Assembly (NCBI GenBank): GCA_026702755.1
Contig: JAPPBX010000100.1
Location: 1-35,267 of the forward strand
DNA length: 35,267 bases
Reading direction: 5' to 3'
DNA from: Candidatus Poribacteria bacterium
Lineage (GTDB): Bacteria > Poribacteria > WGA-4E > WGA-3G
Shown here: one piece after another, positions 9,563 through 15,363 of the stretch
Layout: each line of letters begins with the position of its first letter
How positions within the stretch are numbered: position 1 is the first letter of the stretch
Notes under the pieces: generated by a model
Told to the model about the DNA's origin: nothing
The model's input: the letters and a program-made list of their open reading frames with translations, nothing else
Databases searched by the model: none
Translations under genes and position numbers: made by a program

Positions 9563-9868
9563 TTATGATAAGGTGGTCTTGTCCGATTCATTGCTGACTT
9601 TCAGTGCGGTTTCAACTTCAGCGGCTAATTCTTCAGCGGTAACTTCAGCAAAAGGAGAAATTCCAGCCTCAGACATCAAGTCTGAGAGATCCCATCGGGA
9701 AATATCAAGAAGTTTTGCCGCTCTACCTGCACTAATATCCCCGTGCCGAAGTAGTTCAAGCACAAAAGCCTCTTTCGCTTTACGTTCTGCATCAGTTTTG
9801 TGTTGTAAGAAACTCTCGTCAATAGAAAATGTGAATGTGAATTGGACTTCGACATCTGTTTTTGCCAT
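9563..9868 (-). CDS. UPF0175 family small protein (antitoxin-like)
   Basis: A 101-residue protein matching the UPF0175 pattern. After a beta-rich N-terminal part (VEVQFTFTFSID) comes a helical DNA-binding-like core, AFVLELLRHGDISAGRAAKLLDISRWDLSDLMSEAGIS (residues about 34-71). An acidic tail follows. UPF0175 proteins are small helix-turn-helix or ribbon-helix-helix-like factors, often annotated as antitoxins next to a PIN-type toxin; none is adjacent here. Instead it lies 23 bases behind the DpdA-like gene and in the same direction, so it is probably the fourth gene of that operon and might regulate it. A GAGG ribosome binding site stands eight bases before the ATG. Confidence 0.8.
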   Translation of the reverse strand: MAKTDVEVQFTFTFSIDESFLQHKTDAERKAKEAFVLELLRHGDISAGRAAKLLDISRWDLSDLMSEAGISPFAEVTAEELAAEVETALKVSNESDKTTLS

Positions 9869-9891
9869 AGAGATTACCTCACTTACATATC

Positions 9892-11634
9892 TTACGTTTT
9901 TGAAGATTTCTTACGTCTTTTATTTAAAATTTTATGATAAAATACCCAAGTATTGTGAAATCCTCTTCGTCTGTTACGGTTTGCCCCCCTAAAAACTACA
10001 ACCTGAATGCCGAGCTCCTTGCAAATGGTACATCTACATTTCTTCCAAGGTTGACCTTGGATTAGTGCTTTATGCTCGTCAACAAAATGGTTCCCTTCAC
10101 CCTTTCGCTGAAGGAGCGGACCATATTTATCAATGTTAGCAAGAACTTCTTTTTTTGATTTTGGTGTGCCATCAAAATTCTCAAGGCTTGATAAGCACTG
10201 ACTTTCTAATTCTTCCAATCGTTCATTGGATATTGAATGAGTTTGTGCAGCATCGCGCATCGCTTTTGATGTGCTAATAGGAACTCGTATGGTCCCATAC
10301 CAACCTTTTCCATCCGGTGCTAGGTAATTCCGATCCGAACTCATCCATGCTTTTCTCAAATAAGATGCGCTATCGAAACTGGAAACGCCAAGATTCTGAA
10401 AGCTAGACTGAATCTCTGGTCGCAGAATGCCGAAAAGGTGGATCCAAATATTCTCATCTTTGCCGCGGGTACACCTCTGCAATGCCTCTCGAACTGCTGC
10501 TACTATCTCTAGAATCTCTGAATCTTTTCTACGGACCAGTCCACCCAACGCGATATGTTTATATCCCATATCAACGTATTCTTGAACATAATGGGCATAG
10601 TGCTCAGCAGTAATCCCTTGTATACTACCAATCGGCTTGAACAAATAACCATGATAGTTACAAATATCCAAAAATTCGTTGGCGTATGAAGCGGTTAACT
10701 TCATCCGTCTCTCTTTTTCCCCTATAGACATTGAAGGATGCGGAATATGATCTACGGAGGCACCAAGGTTAAAACCAAATTGGTGGTATAGAGATGCTGC
10801 TTCCCTAGGTTTAAAGTGTGGATTATGGTCCGTAACGTATGAAAAGGCACCACAATCCCCAAATAGAGGCATGCCTCTAGGCATTCGCAGCTCGTCTCGA
10901 AGGACAAACGGTTCTTGTTGTTTATGAAGTCGGTTAAGTAGCCCTTTCCCATTTCTCAGTTGTGCAAGACTAAGAAGCATGCCGTCGTAAGGCACTTTCT
11001 CACCGAAAATCTCATGGGCATAACGCTTTTCGACCTCTTTAGACCGCCTGACCTCGGGTGTTTCATCCGCATGAAAGGGATCATAAACGCGATCATCCCA
11101 ATCTGGAAAGAAGTAGAGACAAGAATGCCTATTTGCTCCTTGAACAGGAATTGCAGCAGGATCATTTGGCAAATCATGTAGCCATTTTTTCATCGCCTGT
11201 TGTTTTTTCCCAATTCCACCCTCAGGATCAATAATTTTGTCAGCACCAAATAACGTTGTAATACAGGAAATTGCAGGTCGATAATCTTTGCCCAGATTGA
11301 TGAAAACGGATGCAGGTAACCCAACTTCTTTCAAACTCTGCATAACCTTCGGACGCATTTTTTGCGCACTTTCTTTATCCAAACGCTCATCGTAAGGTTC
11401 AATGAGTGTGGTAGCATCAATGATTTCGTATTTAGCAGAGATAATTTTTATCATGAGGCCGGGAGGCCATCCGTTCTCCCTGAGAAACTTTCGTAGCACT
11501 CGATAGTTGGGTCCGTCGTAGACTTCAAGAGCCGGAGCTTGGCTGAAATTCTCAATTTTCCTATCTGAACACCCTAAGATTAGTAAATGACCTTCAGCAG
11601 ATTCTTGGGAGTTAGGTTGCAAACATTTCAACAT
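9892..11634 (-). CDS. DUF6884-like/TGT fusion resembling DNA transglycosylase DpdA
   Basis: A 580-residue protein. Residues about 16-135 resemble DUF6884: LLILGCSDRKI, PALEVYDGPNYR, IISAKYEIID and EPYDERL. Residues about 210-565 form a tRNA-guanine-transglycosylase-like TIM barrel. Candidate catalytic aspartates are Asp260 (GDCGAF) and Asp421 (SFDSAS), with substrate-pocket-like IGSIQG (335-340), IALGGLV (361-367) and HLFG (399-402). The zinc site Cys533-x-Cys535-x2-Cys538 with His560 is complete. The motif spelling fits DpdA, which inserts preQ0-type 7-deazaguanine into DNA, better than bacterial Tgt, which is about 375 residues and acts on tRNA. The ATG at 11634 is 5 bases after the HerA stop; a GTG at 11652 is the alternative. 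No queuosine-precursor genes are in the window, so the base would have to come from elsewhere. The DNA-modification role is inferred. Confidence 0.75.
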   Translation of the reverse strand: MLKCLQPNSQESAEGHLLILGCSDRKIENFSQAPALEVYDGPNYRVLRKFLRENGWPPGLMIKIISAKYEIIDATTLIEPYDERLDKESAQKMRPKVMQSLKEVGLPASVFINLGKDYRPAISCITTLFGADKIIDPEGGIGKKQQAMKKWLHDLPNDPAAIPVQGANRHSCLYFFPDWDDRVYDPFHADETPEVRRSKEVEKRYAHEIFGEKVPYDGMLLSLAQLRNGKGLLNRLHKQQEPFVLRDELRMPRGMPLFGDCGAFSYVTDHNPHFKPREAASLYHQFGFNLGASVDHIPHPSMSIGEKERRMKLTASYANEFLDICNYHGYLFKPIGSIQGITAEHYAHYVQEYVDMGYKHIALGGLVRRKDSEILEIVAAVREALQRCTRGKDENIWIHLFGILRPEIQSSFQNLGVSSFDSASYLRKAWMSSDRNYLAPDGKGWYGTIRVPISTSKAMRDAAQTHSISNERLEELESQCLSSLENFDGTPKSKKEVLANIDKYGPLLQRKGEGNHFVDEHKALIQGQPWKKCRCTICKELGIQVVVFRGANRNRRRGFHNTWVFYHKILNKRRKKSSKT

Positions 11635-11639
11635 GATTC

Positions 11640-13538
11640 CTATTCCTGCCACTTTTTTTGTATTGGGCGAGGTCTCTTGGCTCCAGGTTCACTATACCTG
11701 TTTCTAATCTTAACTAGCGGAGACATCCTGGTTTTCAGAGCATCACCTGTGGCAATAGCAACCCCTTCTTTAACGGTCTTCAATATTTCCAGATCTTGGT
11801 TGGATAGAGATTCACCAACATCCCGAATATAAGACTGATCATCCGGATTAATAACCCGGTGCAAAATTAACGTATTGGCTTGCGAAGTGGTTAACGAATC
11901 CACTGAAGCAGGCTTTTGAGAGATAACAAGCATACCAAGCCCCATTTTCCTCCCTTCGGTCGCTATTTGCTGAGCAGCAAACCGAGCAGCCCTTGTAGCG
12001 GGATTCATTTCTCCACTACTACTACTTTCCTCCTGGCGGGGGATCAATGTTCTTGCTTCCTCAAGAGCAAATAAAATGGGATGGGCATTTTCCCCCATGA
12101 TAAAATGCTTTGATTTATACCGATCAAAAGCAAATTCCATAACTGCCCACACTAAGGTTCTTCTTACTTGATTGTTTTCTAAATCTGATAGATTAAATAT
12201 TGCTGTTGATACATTAGTCATCTTACCATCCGTAGAGCAGAAAAAATCTACAAAATCACTAATATCCATTGACCCACAATCACGAACTCTTAGATTCTCA
12301 ACAGTCTGTCTTGCTCGTCTCAGTATTCGTTCAATCGGAGGTCTAGACACAGATTCGCCCATATTATTGGCTCTTCGTATGAGGTGATCAAGAAGGCTAA
12401 TATCTTGTAAATTTTTTCGCTGTTCTTCTGTCAAATTTTGGAGCCAAGGAATAACAAAACCTATTTGGGCATCCTTGAAATCTTCCCGCGCCATTGCTTC
12501 GATTAATCTCATTGTGAAGTAAGGTCCCTGATCTGGATACATTTTAATCCTTGGATAAGCATTAAGATTAAGGGTTAACATTCGATCAACCAATTCCTGA
12601 GGTAGCTCATTTTCCCAATCAAGTTGCTTAATTTTATTAATAACACTATCCAACAGTTCTTCAGGAATCGGTGCTGAATCATCCGAATCATCCAAATCAA
12701 CCATTAAATGGCGGTTCTTAATTAAGCAGAAATTAAACAAGCGATAGAAAATATTCTCATCCATCAACTCAGTTTCGATTTGCTTAGAATAAAAAGCATC
12801 GAGGTTTGGCAATTTCTCACGTAAGTATTCCTGATAATCTGATATTGTTTCTCTCAAATCTTCATCATTTTCGATCTTTGACTTGAACTCATCATACAAC
12901 TTACGACGGATTTTGTTGAGATTTACATAGTCCCCGTGTGGATCGAATACAATAGTCTTCGCTCCACGGAACATTAATTCCTCTAATATTACGGCTGTCG
13001 TGGTTGTTTTTCCCATTCCCGTCATACCGAAAATACCAGCATGCATTGTTACGATTGAGTCTGCGTCTAAAGACACTTGTGCTTGTGTTTCTCGACCAGG
13101 AATCTCGACATGTCCGAGAGAGAGATACCACGGTTCACTTTCTGAGAATAATTTTATCAGAATGTCATCCGATAACAGATTTACTGGCACACCGGGCTGT
13201 ATCGCCTGCGTTAAGGGGGCTATTTTGTTCGTTGTGTCATTGTATATCCCCATTACTTCACATTTGGCTTGATACAGTGTGAATCGGTGCGATATTATAT
13301 CGGGAACCGAAAATCCTAATGTTTCGTGCTCCGAATAAAACTTTGCAGTATCTTTTGCCAAAAGTGGGTTCTCTGTATTGACATCAACAACCTTAGCAAC
13401 AACCTTATTGTTACCTTCAGGCAAATCAACTTCAACATAGGAAAATTTCAATTGATTTTGGTGCTCGCCATCTACATCCCCAAACAGAAAAGAAAACTCC
13501 TGTGTTGATGTTTCACCAAAGATTATTCCTAAAGCCAT
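11640..13538 (-). CDS. herA: HerA-type ATPase (DUF87), DNA translocase
   Basis: A 632-residue P-loop ATPase of the HerA/FtsK superfamily. A beta-barrel (HAS-barrel-like) N-terminal region occupies about residues 1-150. Then come Walker A GMTGMGKTT (171-179), the FDPHGDY block (198-204) typical of HerA, Walker B LFALEEA (489-495) and the sensor/arginine region GMLVISQKPASVD and LILHRVINPDDQSYI (about 535-571). HerA assembles as a hexamer that pumps DNA and works with a NurA nuclease. The directly preceding gene encodes a NurA-like protein, 14 bases away, and the following gene the DpdA-like protein, 5 bases away. The ATG at 13538 lies 7 bases after GGAGG in an ATGGAGG motif. The segment is A+T-rich (19 G/C in bases 12601-12660, against 28 in 16681-16740). 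Confidence 0.88.
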   Translation of the reverse strand: MALGIIFGETSTQEFSFLFGDVDGEHQNQLKFSYVEVDLPEGNNKVVAKVVDVNTENPLLAKDTAKFYSEHETLGFSVPDIISHRFTLYQAKCEVMGIYNDTTNKIAPLTQAIQPGVPVNLLSDDILIKLFSESEPWYLSLGHVEIPGRETQAQVSLDADSIVTMHAGIFGMTGMGKTTTTAVILEELMFRGAKTIVFDPHGDYVNLNKIRRKLYDEFKSKIENDEDLRETISDYQEYLREKLPNLDAFYSKQIETELMDENIFYRLFNFCLIKNRHLMVDLDDSDDSAPIPEELLDSVINKIKQLDWENELPQELVDRMLTLNLNAYPRIKMYPDQGPYFTMRLIEAMAREDFKDAQIGFVIPWLQNLTEEQRKNLQDISLLDHLIRRANNMGESVSRPPIERILRRARQTVENLRVRDCGSMDISDFVDFFCSTDGKMTNVSTAIFNLSDLENNQVRRTLVWAVMEFAFDRYKSKHFIMGENAHPILFALEEARTLIPRQEESSSSGEMNPATRAARFAAQQIATEGRKMGLGMLVISQKPASVDSLTTSQANTLILHRVINPDDQSYIRDVGESLSNQDLEILKTVKEGVAIATGDALKTRMSPLVKIRNRYSEPGAKRPRPIQKKWQE

Positions 13539-13552
13539 TGTGTTTCCTCCAT

Positions 13553-15184
13553 TTACCCTCGGTTATGAAAATCTCTTGTTAACTTATTGGTTACCATTAA
13601 GAAAACCTCCCTCAAACTGTTACCATCCAATCCAAGTTGACGAAAAGCTCGATTTGCTTGGTCAAGTAGGTATGATTCAGTGACTGTCGAGGTAATTTTC
13701 TTGGGCATTCTTGCCATTTTATCAGCATAATACAAGAATATAGGTAAACCGTAACTGCTGTAGGGAAGACTGGCAATATAAATAGATGCTAATACATCGT
13801 TCCACGTTTCCGCAGTTCCTTGTTCCAAGAATTCAACTCGGATAGGTGCTTTTAGTTCACTTGTCCGGACAAAACTCATCAACATTCTGTATTTATCAAA
13901 AGGAAGTAACTTATTTATAATATCAGAAATTAAAGGTTCTCGTGCGTCTCCTAAAGCAGATAATGAACCAAGCTGAACTTTAAATATACTATTATTGCTA
14001 CGACTGGTAAAATATCTTCGGATCGGCACAGGGTTAGTAAATTCTGATTCAGTCGAACGTTCGCCGTCAAACCTTAACGAAAAAGATTGAATCATCTCAT
14101 CACCCCATCCTGATTTACGAATGAATTCCTGAAATTGATCCTTGAAATTTTTTCCGTTGGAATCTACATCGTAGGACTCAAACAACTGGCGAAGGATCCT
14201 CTGGTTATCAGAATCTTCTTGTCCGAAATTTTCGATTTGGTACTGGACATACAATCTTGAATATTCTGTTGAATCATCACCTTTTTCGACACAACCGATT
14301 AACGAGAAATTCATCTCATTGGCGAGATCTGACAGTTTCCTAAGAAGTGAAAAATAGATACATATCCCCGGAATTTCCCCTTTATTAACTCTCTGTTCGA
14401 TTTTCTGTTGTCTCTCCGTAGAGGCAGCGAACAAATCAACAAAACGGCTTACACCATCTTTATAATCCGCTTCTTCGACTATCAAATCCAGCAAACCACC
14501 ATTCGCAGTAGTTTTCACTTCATCAGCAACCTCAGAGGGTGGTTCAATATCCGCGGTGAGGACTTCCTTTATATCTTCTTTCCGAAAGAGAAGACTCATA
14601 AACGGGCCGATTTGTCGAATTAGCGGGCCGTGAAAAATAATAGAATATAGTGGTTCGTCGTAACTTTCAAGGATTTTTGCAGTATAAAAGGCAACATATA
14701 AATTAAGAAGGTAAGATAAAAATTGCATTTTACGTTCAAAATCTTCATCTTCTTCAGCTTGAAGACGAAGCATTGACGAAACTGTGAGTATCTTTTCCGT
14801 CTTGGGCGTTTGTGGATCAGGGATCTTATATCCGAACGCGCAACTATGCCTATACGCAATCCCACCTACAAAACTCTCGTTATCAACGATAGATTCATCC
14901 ACCGAAATTATCCACTTCCCTTTCATCTCAGAACAAACTTTCGACAGGAGGTCCTTATCAAATTTCGACCTTCCTATAGTGTATGTGTCGGGTTCTATGT
15001 CCTTTTCATAAGAGACACCAGTAATTTTCCTAATGTAGTCATTTCCTAAAAACTCAACACTTGTGTCAATTTTTGCTCCAAGTTCATTCTCAGATAATGC
15101 TTCAAATTCGGCTAAAAGATTTCTTATCACTCGGTTTCCAGCATCTCTAAATGCGGTATCGGTTAGAAATTGTTTTCCGTTCAT
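13553..15184 (-). CDS. NurA-like nuclease, HerA partner
   Basis: A 543-residue soluble protein that I assign to the NurA group from context plus partial motifs. WIISVDES (91-98) matches the first NurA acidic motif (VDGS-like, Asp96). IIFHGPLI (182-189) matches the DG-L motif but has His185 where NurA usually has Asp. SLIGCVEKGDDSTEYSR (294-310) matches the later basic/serine block, and the C-terminal end is helical. NurA is a 5'-3' exonuclease and single-strand endonuclease that acts inside the HerA channel. The start is the ATG at 15184, which has TAGGAG 8 bases upstream; a TTG 93 bases earlier lacks one. It is the first gene of the operon and has a promoter at 15335-15363. Loss of one expected acidic residue makes activity uncertain, and a non-NurA HerA partner is possible. 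Confidence 0.6.
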   Translation of the reverse strand: MNGKQFLTDTAFRDAGNRVIRNLLAEFEALSENELGAKIDTSVEFLGNDYIRKITGVSYEKDIEPDTYTIGRSKFDKDLLSKVCSEMKGKWIISVDESIVDNESFVGGIAYRHSCAFGYKIPDPQTPKTEKILTVSSMLRLQAEEDEDFERKMQFLSYLLNLYVAFYTAKILESYDEPLYSIIFHGPLIRQIGPFMSLLFRKEDIKEVLTADIEPPSEVADEVKTTANGGLLDLIVEEADYKDGVSRFVDLFAASTERQQKIEQRVNKGEIPGICIYFSLLRKLSDLANEMNFSLIGCVEKGDDSTEYSRLYVQYQIENFGQEDSDNQRILRQLFESYDVDSNGKNFKDQFQEFIRKSGWGDEMIQSFSLRFDGERSTESEFTNPVPIRRYFTSRSNNSIFKVQLGSLSALGDAREPLISDIINKLLPFDKYRMLMSFVRTSELKAPIRVEFLEQGTAETWNDVLASIYIASLPYSSYGLPIFLYYADKMARMPKKITSTVTESYLLDQANRAFRQLGLDGNSLREVFLMVTNKLTRDFHNRG

Positions 15185-15334
15185 AGATTTTACTCCTACA
15201 GAGAAGAATTTTTCTGCAACCTCGCTGATAAAGTGAAAGGTGTAGTATTTATTGGGACAGTTCAACCTCTCTTCCAAAGTTTAAAGGGTCGGTATTCAGT
15301 CAACACGGTTGAATTCCCTAACAAGAATAATAAC

Positions 15335-15363
15335 ACTGTACCACATCTATTGAGAAAGGTCAA
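15335..15363 (-). promoter_or_regulatory. Promoter for the NurA-HerA-DpdA operon
   Basis: On the minus strand TTGACC (15363-15358) and TACAGT (15340-15335) are separated by 17 bp. The start codon is about 150 bases downstream, leaving room for a regulated leader. Confidence 0.55.

Follow-up and report, generated by a model that had tools for sequence, protein, structure and literature searches.

Deazaguanine marking of bacterial DNA is known from the Dpd islands, in which dpdA-C are assigned to synthesis and dpdD-K to restriction in the available sections of one survey (PMC11888242). Two related arrangements have been reported. BRIGADE joins Dpd-like genes to YprA-family helicases in haloarchaea, as outlined in the accessible part of its description (PMC12458937). 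BREX-Related Capture (BRC) contains HerA and PglZ, with a tRNA-guanine transglycosylase (TGT) in some of its members, and its authors found no DpdC homologue according to the excerpts at hand (PMC12839542). The archaeal HerA-NurA complex uses ATP-driven translocation to feed double-stranded DNA into NurA (PMC12977600, partial text). Here we describe an operon in a 35,267-nt window (the whole of contig C100, JAPPBX010000100.1, forward strand) from a sponge-associated Candidatus Poribacteria bacterium, the assembly of which comprises 5.84 Mb in 126 contigs and is 96% complete. Relatives of the operon with known names point to the same phylum. The operon encodes a NurA-type nuclease, a HerA-type ATPase and a DUF6884-DpdA fusion protein, and it is probably, though far from certainly, a compact Dpd-like restriction-modification system.

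With the Dpd system (dpdA-K, S. Montevideo type) the operon shares a DpdA above the curated cut-off, a DUF6884 domain, the predicted use of 7-cyano-7-deazaguanine (preQ0), and the pairing of a modification part with a nuclease part. It differs in having NurA-HerA, in the fusion of DUF6884 to DpdA, and in the absence of DpdB, a phospholipase D (PLD) nuclease, YprA (DpdJ) and SNF2 helicases; none of the dpdD-K restriction genes (YprA/DpdJ helicase, PLD DpdK) was present in the operon, the rest of the genome not having been searched for them. BRC has the HerA translocase in common with the operon and, in its subset, the TGT, but its core consists of PglZ, a DUF6079 ATPase, a STAND NTPase and DUF4007, and the available portion of the BRC paper names no NurA or DUF6884 (PMC12839542). 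PglZ, DUF6079, DUF4007 and STAND NTPase were not among the operon genes, which match other families (the wider genome was not searched). BRIGADE is likewise a Dpd-like hybrid, a 7-deazaguanine gene cluster with a swapped nuclease part that is sometimes PD-(D/E)XK; it is, however, defined by YprA-family helicases and limited to haloarchaea in the portion of its description seen, and neither is true of the operon. The archaeal HerA-NurA end-resection complex (PDB 9x1l/9x1m) is related through its motor and nuclease families, as the NurA fold and the HerA matches show, but it is repair machinery for which the sections consulted describe no TGT or DUF6884 partner. The nearest mechanistic parallel would be the DNA sulfur-marking system TdpABC, where a mark carried by host DNA controls a HerA-like motor and a NurA-like nuclease. 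That mark is a backbone phosphorothioate instead of a base, and the TdpAB structure (8wfd), eleventh among the PDB entries retrieved with our NurA model, was a non-significant fold match (E 0.14).

The first-pass annotation, a reading of the sequence alone, had put the gene set forward as a candidate undescribed system. The association of NurA-HerA with DpdA and DUF6884 was indeed not described in the open literature searched, parts of which were partial texts; several central Dpd papers lie outside that search, and an earlier mention may exist. Because Dpd, BRIGADE and BRC already join a TGT to nucleases or HerA in the texts available, the operon is a variation on a known theme.

Proteins encoded by the operon

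Gene starts were refined using relatives and ribosome-binding sites, after which the four leftward genes stood 14, 5 and 23 bases apart, as in the initial reading. The features are as follows.

13553..15184, minus strand: nurA, NurA-type nuclease of 543 amino acids, with an ATG start at 15184
11640..13538, minus strand: herA, HerA-type hexameric DNA-translocating ATPase of 632 amino acids (DUF87/HerA profile, PADLOC, PDB relatives)
9892..11634, minus strand: DUF6884-DpdA fusion of 580 amino acids, a YaaA-like domain with CxxxK and SAK motifs at the N terminus, followed by a DNA-guanine transglycosylase
9563..9868, minus strand: UPF0175 gene, 101 amino acids (PF03683), a probable orphan antitoxin at the operon end
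15335..15363, minus strand: promoter-like site TTGACC-N17-TACAGT 5' of nurA (consensus scan only)

Profile searches agreed with the four protein identities first proposed, NurA being just at its cut-off and then confirmed by its fold. All four genes are under purifying selection (ratio of non-synonymous to synonymous substitution rates 0.15-0.32 against relatives) and contain no internal stops.

The transglycosylase part scored 336 bits against the DpdA model NF041059 (curated equivalog cut-off 200) vs. 30 bits against the TgtA profile, and 34.4 bits against the TGT family (cut-off 26.3). Its match to the DNA-guanine transglycosylase structure 7ui4 had an E value of 6e-92, compared with 4e-7 for an archaeal tRNA TGT. 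The active-site acids and the zinc-binding Cys3His set (GDCGAF, SFDSAS and CRCTIC...H, i.e., CxCxxC...H) are all there, also in the alignment with 7ui4, and all full copies among the relatives retain these motifs, the sole deviation being GDPGAF for GDCGAF in two copies. Such figures bear on the alternative that the operon encodes a defence complex in which DpdA does not modify DNA but acts on tRNA or senses nucleic acid, HerA-NurA being only the effector as in Sir2-HerA and DUF4297-HerA. HerA-effector defence complexes are documented (PMC11291478), and TGT folds act mostly on tRNA. The preference for DpdA over tRNA-type profiles and structures, the conserved catalytic motifs, and the presence in the genome of its own ordinary tRNA Tgt (545 bits) argue against this alternative, which we regard as very unlikely.

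DUF6884 was detected within the first 170 residues of the fusion (35.2 bits, cut-off 30). Pfam curators tie this family to the oxidative-stress protein YaaA, with motifs CxxxK and LSAxxG (PMC11701544), and the available part of one survey links dpdC to DUF6884 (PMC11888242). The Lys of CxxxK was lost in two of ten fused DUF6884 domains checked (G077 and G057). A stand-alone DUF6884 gene with the Lys retained opens both of these operons (L033:3788-4249 and L037:5246-5725), and none of the eight operons with an intact domain starts in this way (one-sided Fisher p 0.022, n = 10, in a test devised post hoc). Compensation of the lost CxxxK by a separate intact DUF6884 is a suggestive hint, from a small sample, that DUF6884 is needed.

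The HerA product was recognized by its central domain (DUF87, 83.4 bits) and also called by PADLOC. Its best PDB match by sequence was 9x1l, in which HerA from T. kodakarensis is complexed with NurA (E 2e-26), and it carries a Walker A motif (GMTGMGKT at 171) and an acidic Walker B region (LFALEEAR at 489). NurA scored 21.1 bits against PF09376, barely at the Pfam cut-off of 21; its structure was therefore modelled and the PDB searched by fold. An AlphaFold2 model from 14 homologues (predicted local distance difference test, pLDDT, 65; predicted template modelling score 0.71) was searched against the PDB with Foldseek, and the top ten matches were all NurA (E 6e-6 to 6e-5, probability 1.00), and the idea that the borderline Pfam hit was spurious was rejected on this ground. 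An earlier model from 7 close sequences (pLDDT 46) was too poor for use, and a sequence-profile search of the PDB retrieved no NurA. The identities of HerA and NurA are thus confirmed by sequence and fold. Residues invariant in the 14 NurA homologues are D96, E130, HGPL at 185-188 (H185), E300, D488 and K489, and the His of HGPL is also kept in diverged NurA homologues. D96 lies at the expected first NurA active-site motif, HGPL being the second; it may be the counterpart of Asp49, which is essential in T. kodakarensis NurA according to the accessible part of PMC12977600.

Recurrence, exchange of the nuclease module and loss

We surveyed 85 Poribacteria genomes. Full-length NurA of the window type was found in 8 of them, with HerA directly after it in each. 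DpdA follows HerA in seven (the window and six further genomes, from two families), whereas in the eighth (G055, L093) the contig breaks off within HerA. The gene arrangement is not a chance one, since the same arrangement was found again in other genomes; this independent co-occurrence supports the compact system of a DpdA-type TGT with HerA-NurA that the first-pass annotation had put forward. In a genome of the other family (G016, L038) DpdA and DUF6884 are two adjacent genes, DUF6884 lying downstream, and the window protein is therefore a fusion of two parts that can also be encoded by neighbouring genes.

In G060 and G057 the DUF6884-DpdA fusion is preceded by genes for a UvrD-type helicase and a PD-(D/E)XK nuclease, which replace NurA-HerA; G074 and G077 carry both modules. 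In the DpdA tree the window protein is sister to that of G060 (UvrD form), with bootstrap support of 100 and 99 in the Shimodaira-Hasegawa-like approximate likelihood ratio test, so the nuclease module has switched between close relatives. The UvrD module is found outside the phylum as well. A deltaproteobacterium (L053) has the order DpdA-UvrD-PD-(D/E)XK, with a DpdA 56% identical to that of the window, and queD, queE and queC on the same strand end 2.3 kb upstream of this locus; a metagenome-assembled Chloroflexi genome (L054) has UvrD-PD-(D/E)XK followed by the DUF6884-DpdA fusion. The nuclease part is exchangeable around a constant core of TGT and DUF6884. NurA-HerA-DpdA itself was found in none of 400 Chloroflexota genomes searched with the NurA profile, where diverged versions turned up instead, and among 395 genomes around G085 the DpdA fusion was present in G085 alone.

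The four operon genes have G+C contents of 0.385-0.428 (0.404 overall) and 0.33-0.36 at third codon positions, compared with 0.505 and 0.517 (0.47-0.51 at third positions) for the two flanking genes, which bears out the lower G+C noted at first. The flanking genes resemble, by sequence and not by profile, those for a tricorn-like protease and an acetate kinase. The same site holds the NurA-HerA form in G050 and G048, and the protease gene is likewise adjacent to the system in G078, G055 and G060 (UvrD form). Six further genomes (G081, G042, G073, G059, G082 and G084) yielded only C-terminal fragments of DpdA in this neighbourhood, and in four of them the UPF0175 gene as well. Defence loci typically undergo such recurrent loss and exchange in place, which is not in itself proof. 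A phage-borne origin of the operon was considered and rejected, as no relative was present in IMG/VR and annotated phages gave a single DpdA match of 31% identity. Plasmids yielded no NurA match; their DpdA relatives, mostly annotated as DpdA, had ∼70% query coverage and ∼29-38% identity among the matches listed.

The distribution also bears on whether the operon serves DNA repair, HerA-NurA resecting ends and the TGT/DUF6884 protein handling damaged bases with no role in defence. Archaeal HerA-NurA is a resection nuclease in the available part of PMC12977600, and DUF6884 is akin to the oxidative-stress protein YaaA (PMC11701544). A repair function fits poorly with the patchy occurrence of full-length NurA, with the recurrent losses, of which DpdA fragments remain at a single site, and with the low G+C; the swap for an unrelated UvrD-PD-(D/E)XK module is defence-like and not of a housekeeping kind. 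We consider repair a decidedly unlikely function of the operon.

Base supply and proposed mode of action

QueC was found in the window genome and in every one of the 85 Poribacteria genomes searched, a few giving only weak matches. Together with the tRNA Tgt of the window genome, this indicates that the host very probably makes preQ0. The restriction-modification reading builds on the observed protein families, intact motifs, purifying selection, recurrent linkage, exchangeable nuclease, and host QueC and tRNA Tgt; from these we infer DNA as the target, the nature of the mark, its protective effect and the role in defence. DpdA would swap guanine in host DNA for preQ0 drawn from the host queuosine pathway. 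By analogy with DpdC and archaeosine synthase, the fused DUF6884 may tailor the nitrile of preQ0 or help to recognize the base. HerA would load on DNA and thread it into a NurA dimer, which would cut it. The mark on host DNA would block loading, translocation or cutting, and unmarked phage or plasmid DNA would be destroyed. If this is correct, deazaguanine DNA marking in bacteria extends beyond the 11-gene Dpd island and is modular, with a minimum of three genes. The reading of a 7-deazaguanine mark by a nuclease would become testable with three proteins, HerA-NurA would come to be seen as a restriction engine under the control of a mark, and a function would be suggested for the uncharacterised DUF6884 family.

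Several points weigh against this reading. Archaeal HerA-NurA works in DNA repair. The second NurA motif, 'DG', reads HGPL in all relatives, so that catalysis is an assumption. One locus (L097) has DUF6884-NurA-HerA with no TGT found beside it. In addition, the window assembly has no homologue of DpdB (DndB/DGQHR, PF14072), an ATPase described as powering base insertion by Dpd systems, although it is dispensable in some clusters according to the available part of PMC12839542.

The location of a DpdA relative beside preQ0 biosynthesis genes in L053 fits insertion. It thereby also speaks against a reversed logic, in which TGT and DUF6884 remove, edit or recognize 7-deazaguanines in phage DNA and HerA-NurA attacks DNA bearing them, in a modification-dependent, type IV-like manner. 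Phage DpdA is known to make 7-deazaguanines in phage DNA (PMC6884629), TGT chemistry is an exchange that could in principle go in both directions, and YfjM, which belongs to DUF6884, is one of the proteins reported to bind abasic and RNA-base lesions (PMC11701544). With QueC universal in the phylum, however, a modification-dependent nuclease would require host DNA free of the base, and we think a reversed logic unlikely.

Diverged versions and related neighbourhoods

Loci with the order DUF6884-NurA-HerA-TGT and a deeply diverged TGT were found in Poribacteria (G058, L096; G019, L147; and G038, L095, which has extra copies) and, in the same order, in Chloroflexota (G118, L125; G196, L144; G300, L145). 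Their NurA proteins scored 30-40 bits (cut-off 21) in L096, L125, L144 and L147, and 33.7-39.7 bits in the first three of these. Two genomes (G021, L103 and G028, L146) have HerA with a further NurA-like protein (15-16 bits, below the cut-off) and this second TGT. HerA and a NurA or NurA-like gene adjoin the second TGT in all eight chromosomal loci inspected, a count that leaves out G332 and G089 (fragments) and a distant match in G001. In the Chloroflexota genome G434 (L124), NurA-HerA is followed by a TGT fused to DUF5591. The DUF6884 protein of L144 matched DUF5591 weakly (17.5 bits), which suggests that DUF6884 and DUF5591 form one superfamily.

It is possible, but only tentatively proposed, that these loci belong to a general and undescribed class of deazaguanine-based self/non-self systems. 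Such a class would have a constant marking core of TGT and DUF6884-superfamily domains and interchangeable motor-nucleases (HerA-NurA, UvrD-PD-(D/E)XK and perhaps a HerA-like protein with SbcCD). DUF6884 would then be a new base-tailoring enzyme that acts on nitriles and may produce a base so far unseen in DNA.

Other neighbourhoods were observed around related genes. On plasmid6 of Aulosira laxa NIES-50 (L143:3844-11062), a TGT of the second type, ∼58% identical to that of L125, departs from the linkage to NurA-HerA and lies behind SbcD-like and SbcC-like genes; the HerA match at this locus is 21.0 bits, below the cut-off, and the SbcCD-like and HerA-like genes possibly form a further nuclease module. 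In L104:2649-7941 the place of HerA-NurA next to TGT/DUF6884 is taken by a PIN_4 domain protein and a BrxC/D-like ATPase, and L105 looks similar. In the Poribacteria genome G024 (L041:1660-3297), one open reading frame joins the C-terminal part of DpdA to a DndB/DpdB domain (PF14072, 89.9 bits), and a QueE-like radical S-adenosylmethionine gene lies nearby. DpdA genes of Chloroflexota (L058:9049-9963, L061, L070 and relatives) have a second, short TGT-like protein of ∼300 amino acids beside them, encoded in the divergent orientation.

At the ends of the operon, two features were given less weight than in the initial reading. The UPF0175 product matched PF03683 (44.9 bits) and the PADLOC candidate PDC-S70, and had been counted as a fourth member of the system. 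It was rejected as a core gene because in L036 and L042 the partner of UPF0175 is a PIN-type gene, DUF3368, and because congeners that have lost the other operon genes retain UPF0175. The DUF3368 partner is missing in the window; UPF0175 is therefore treated as probably the leftover antitoxin of a UPF0175-DUF3368 pair. As for the single promoter proposed for the operon, the TTGACC-N17-TACAGT site is present 5' of nurA, but such sites are no more common in the region than expected by chance (22 found vs. 16.9 expected, by consensus scan). At the operon site in G082 (L044:6038-7961), a gene for a GMT-like winged helix-turn-helix protein and a DUF5131 gene adjoin the C-terminal fragment of DpdA.

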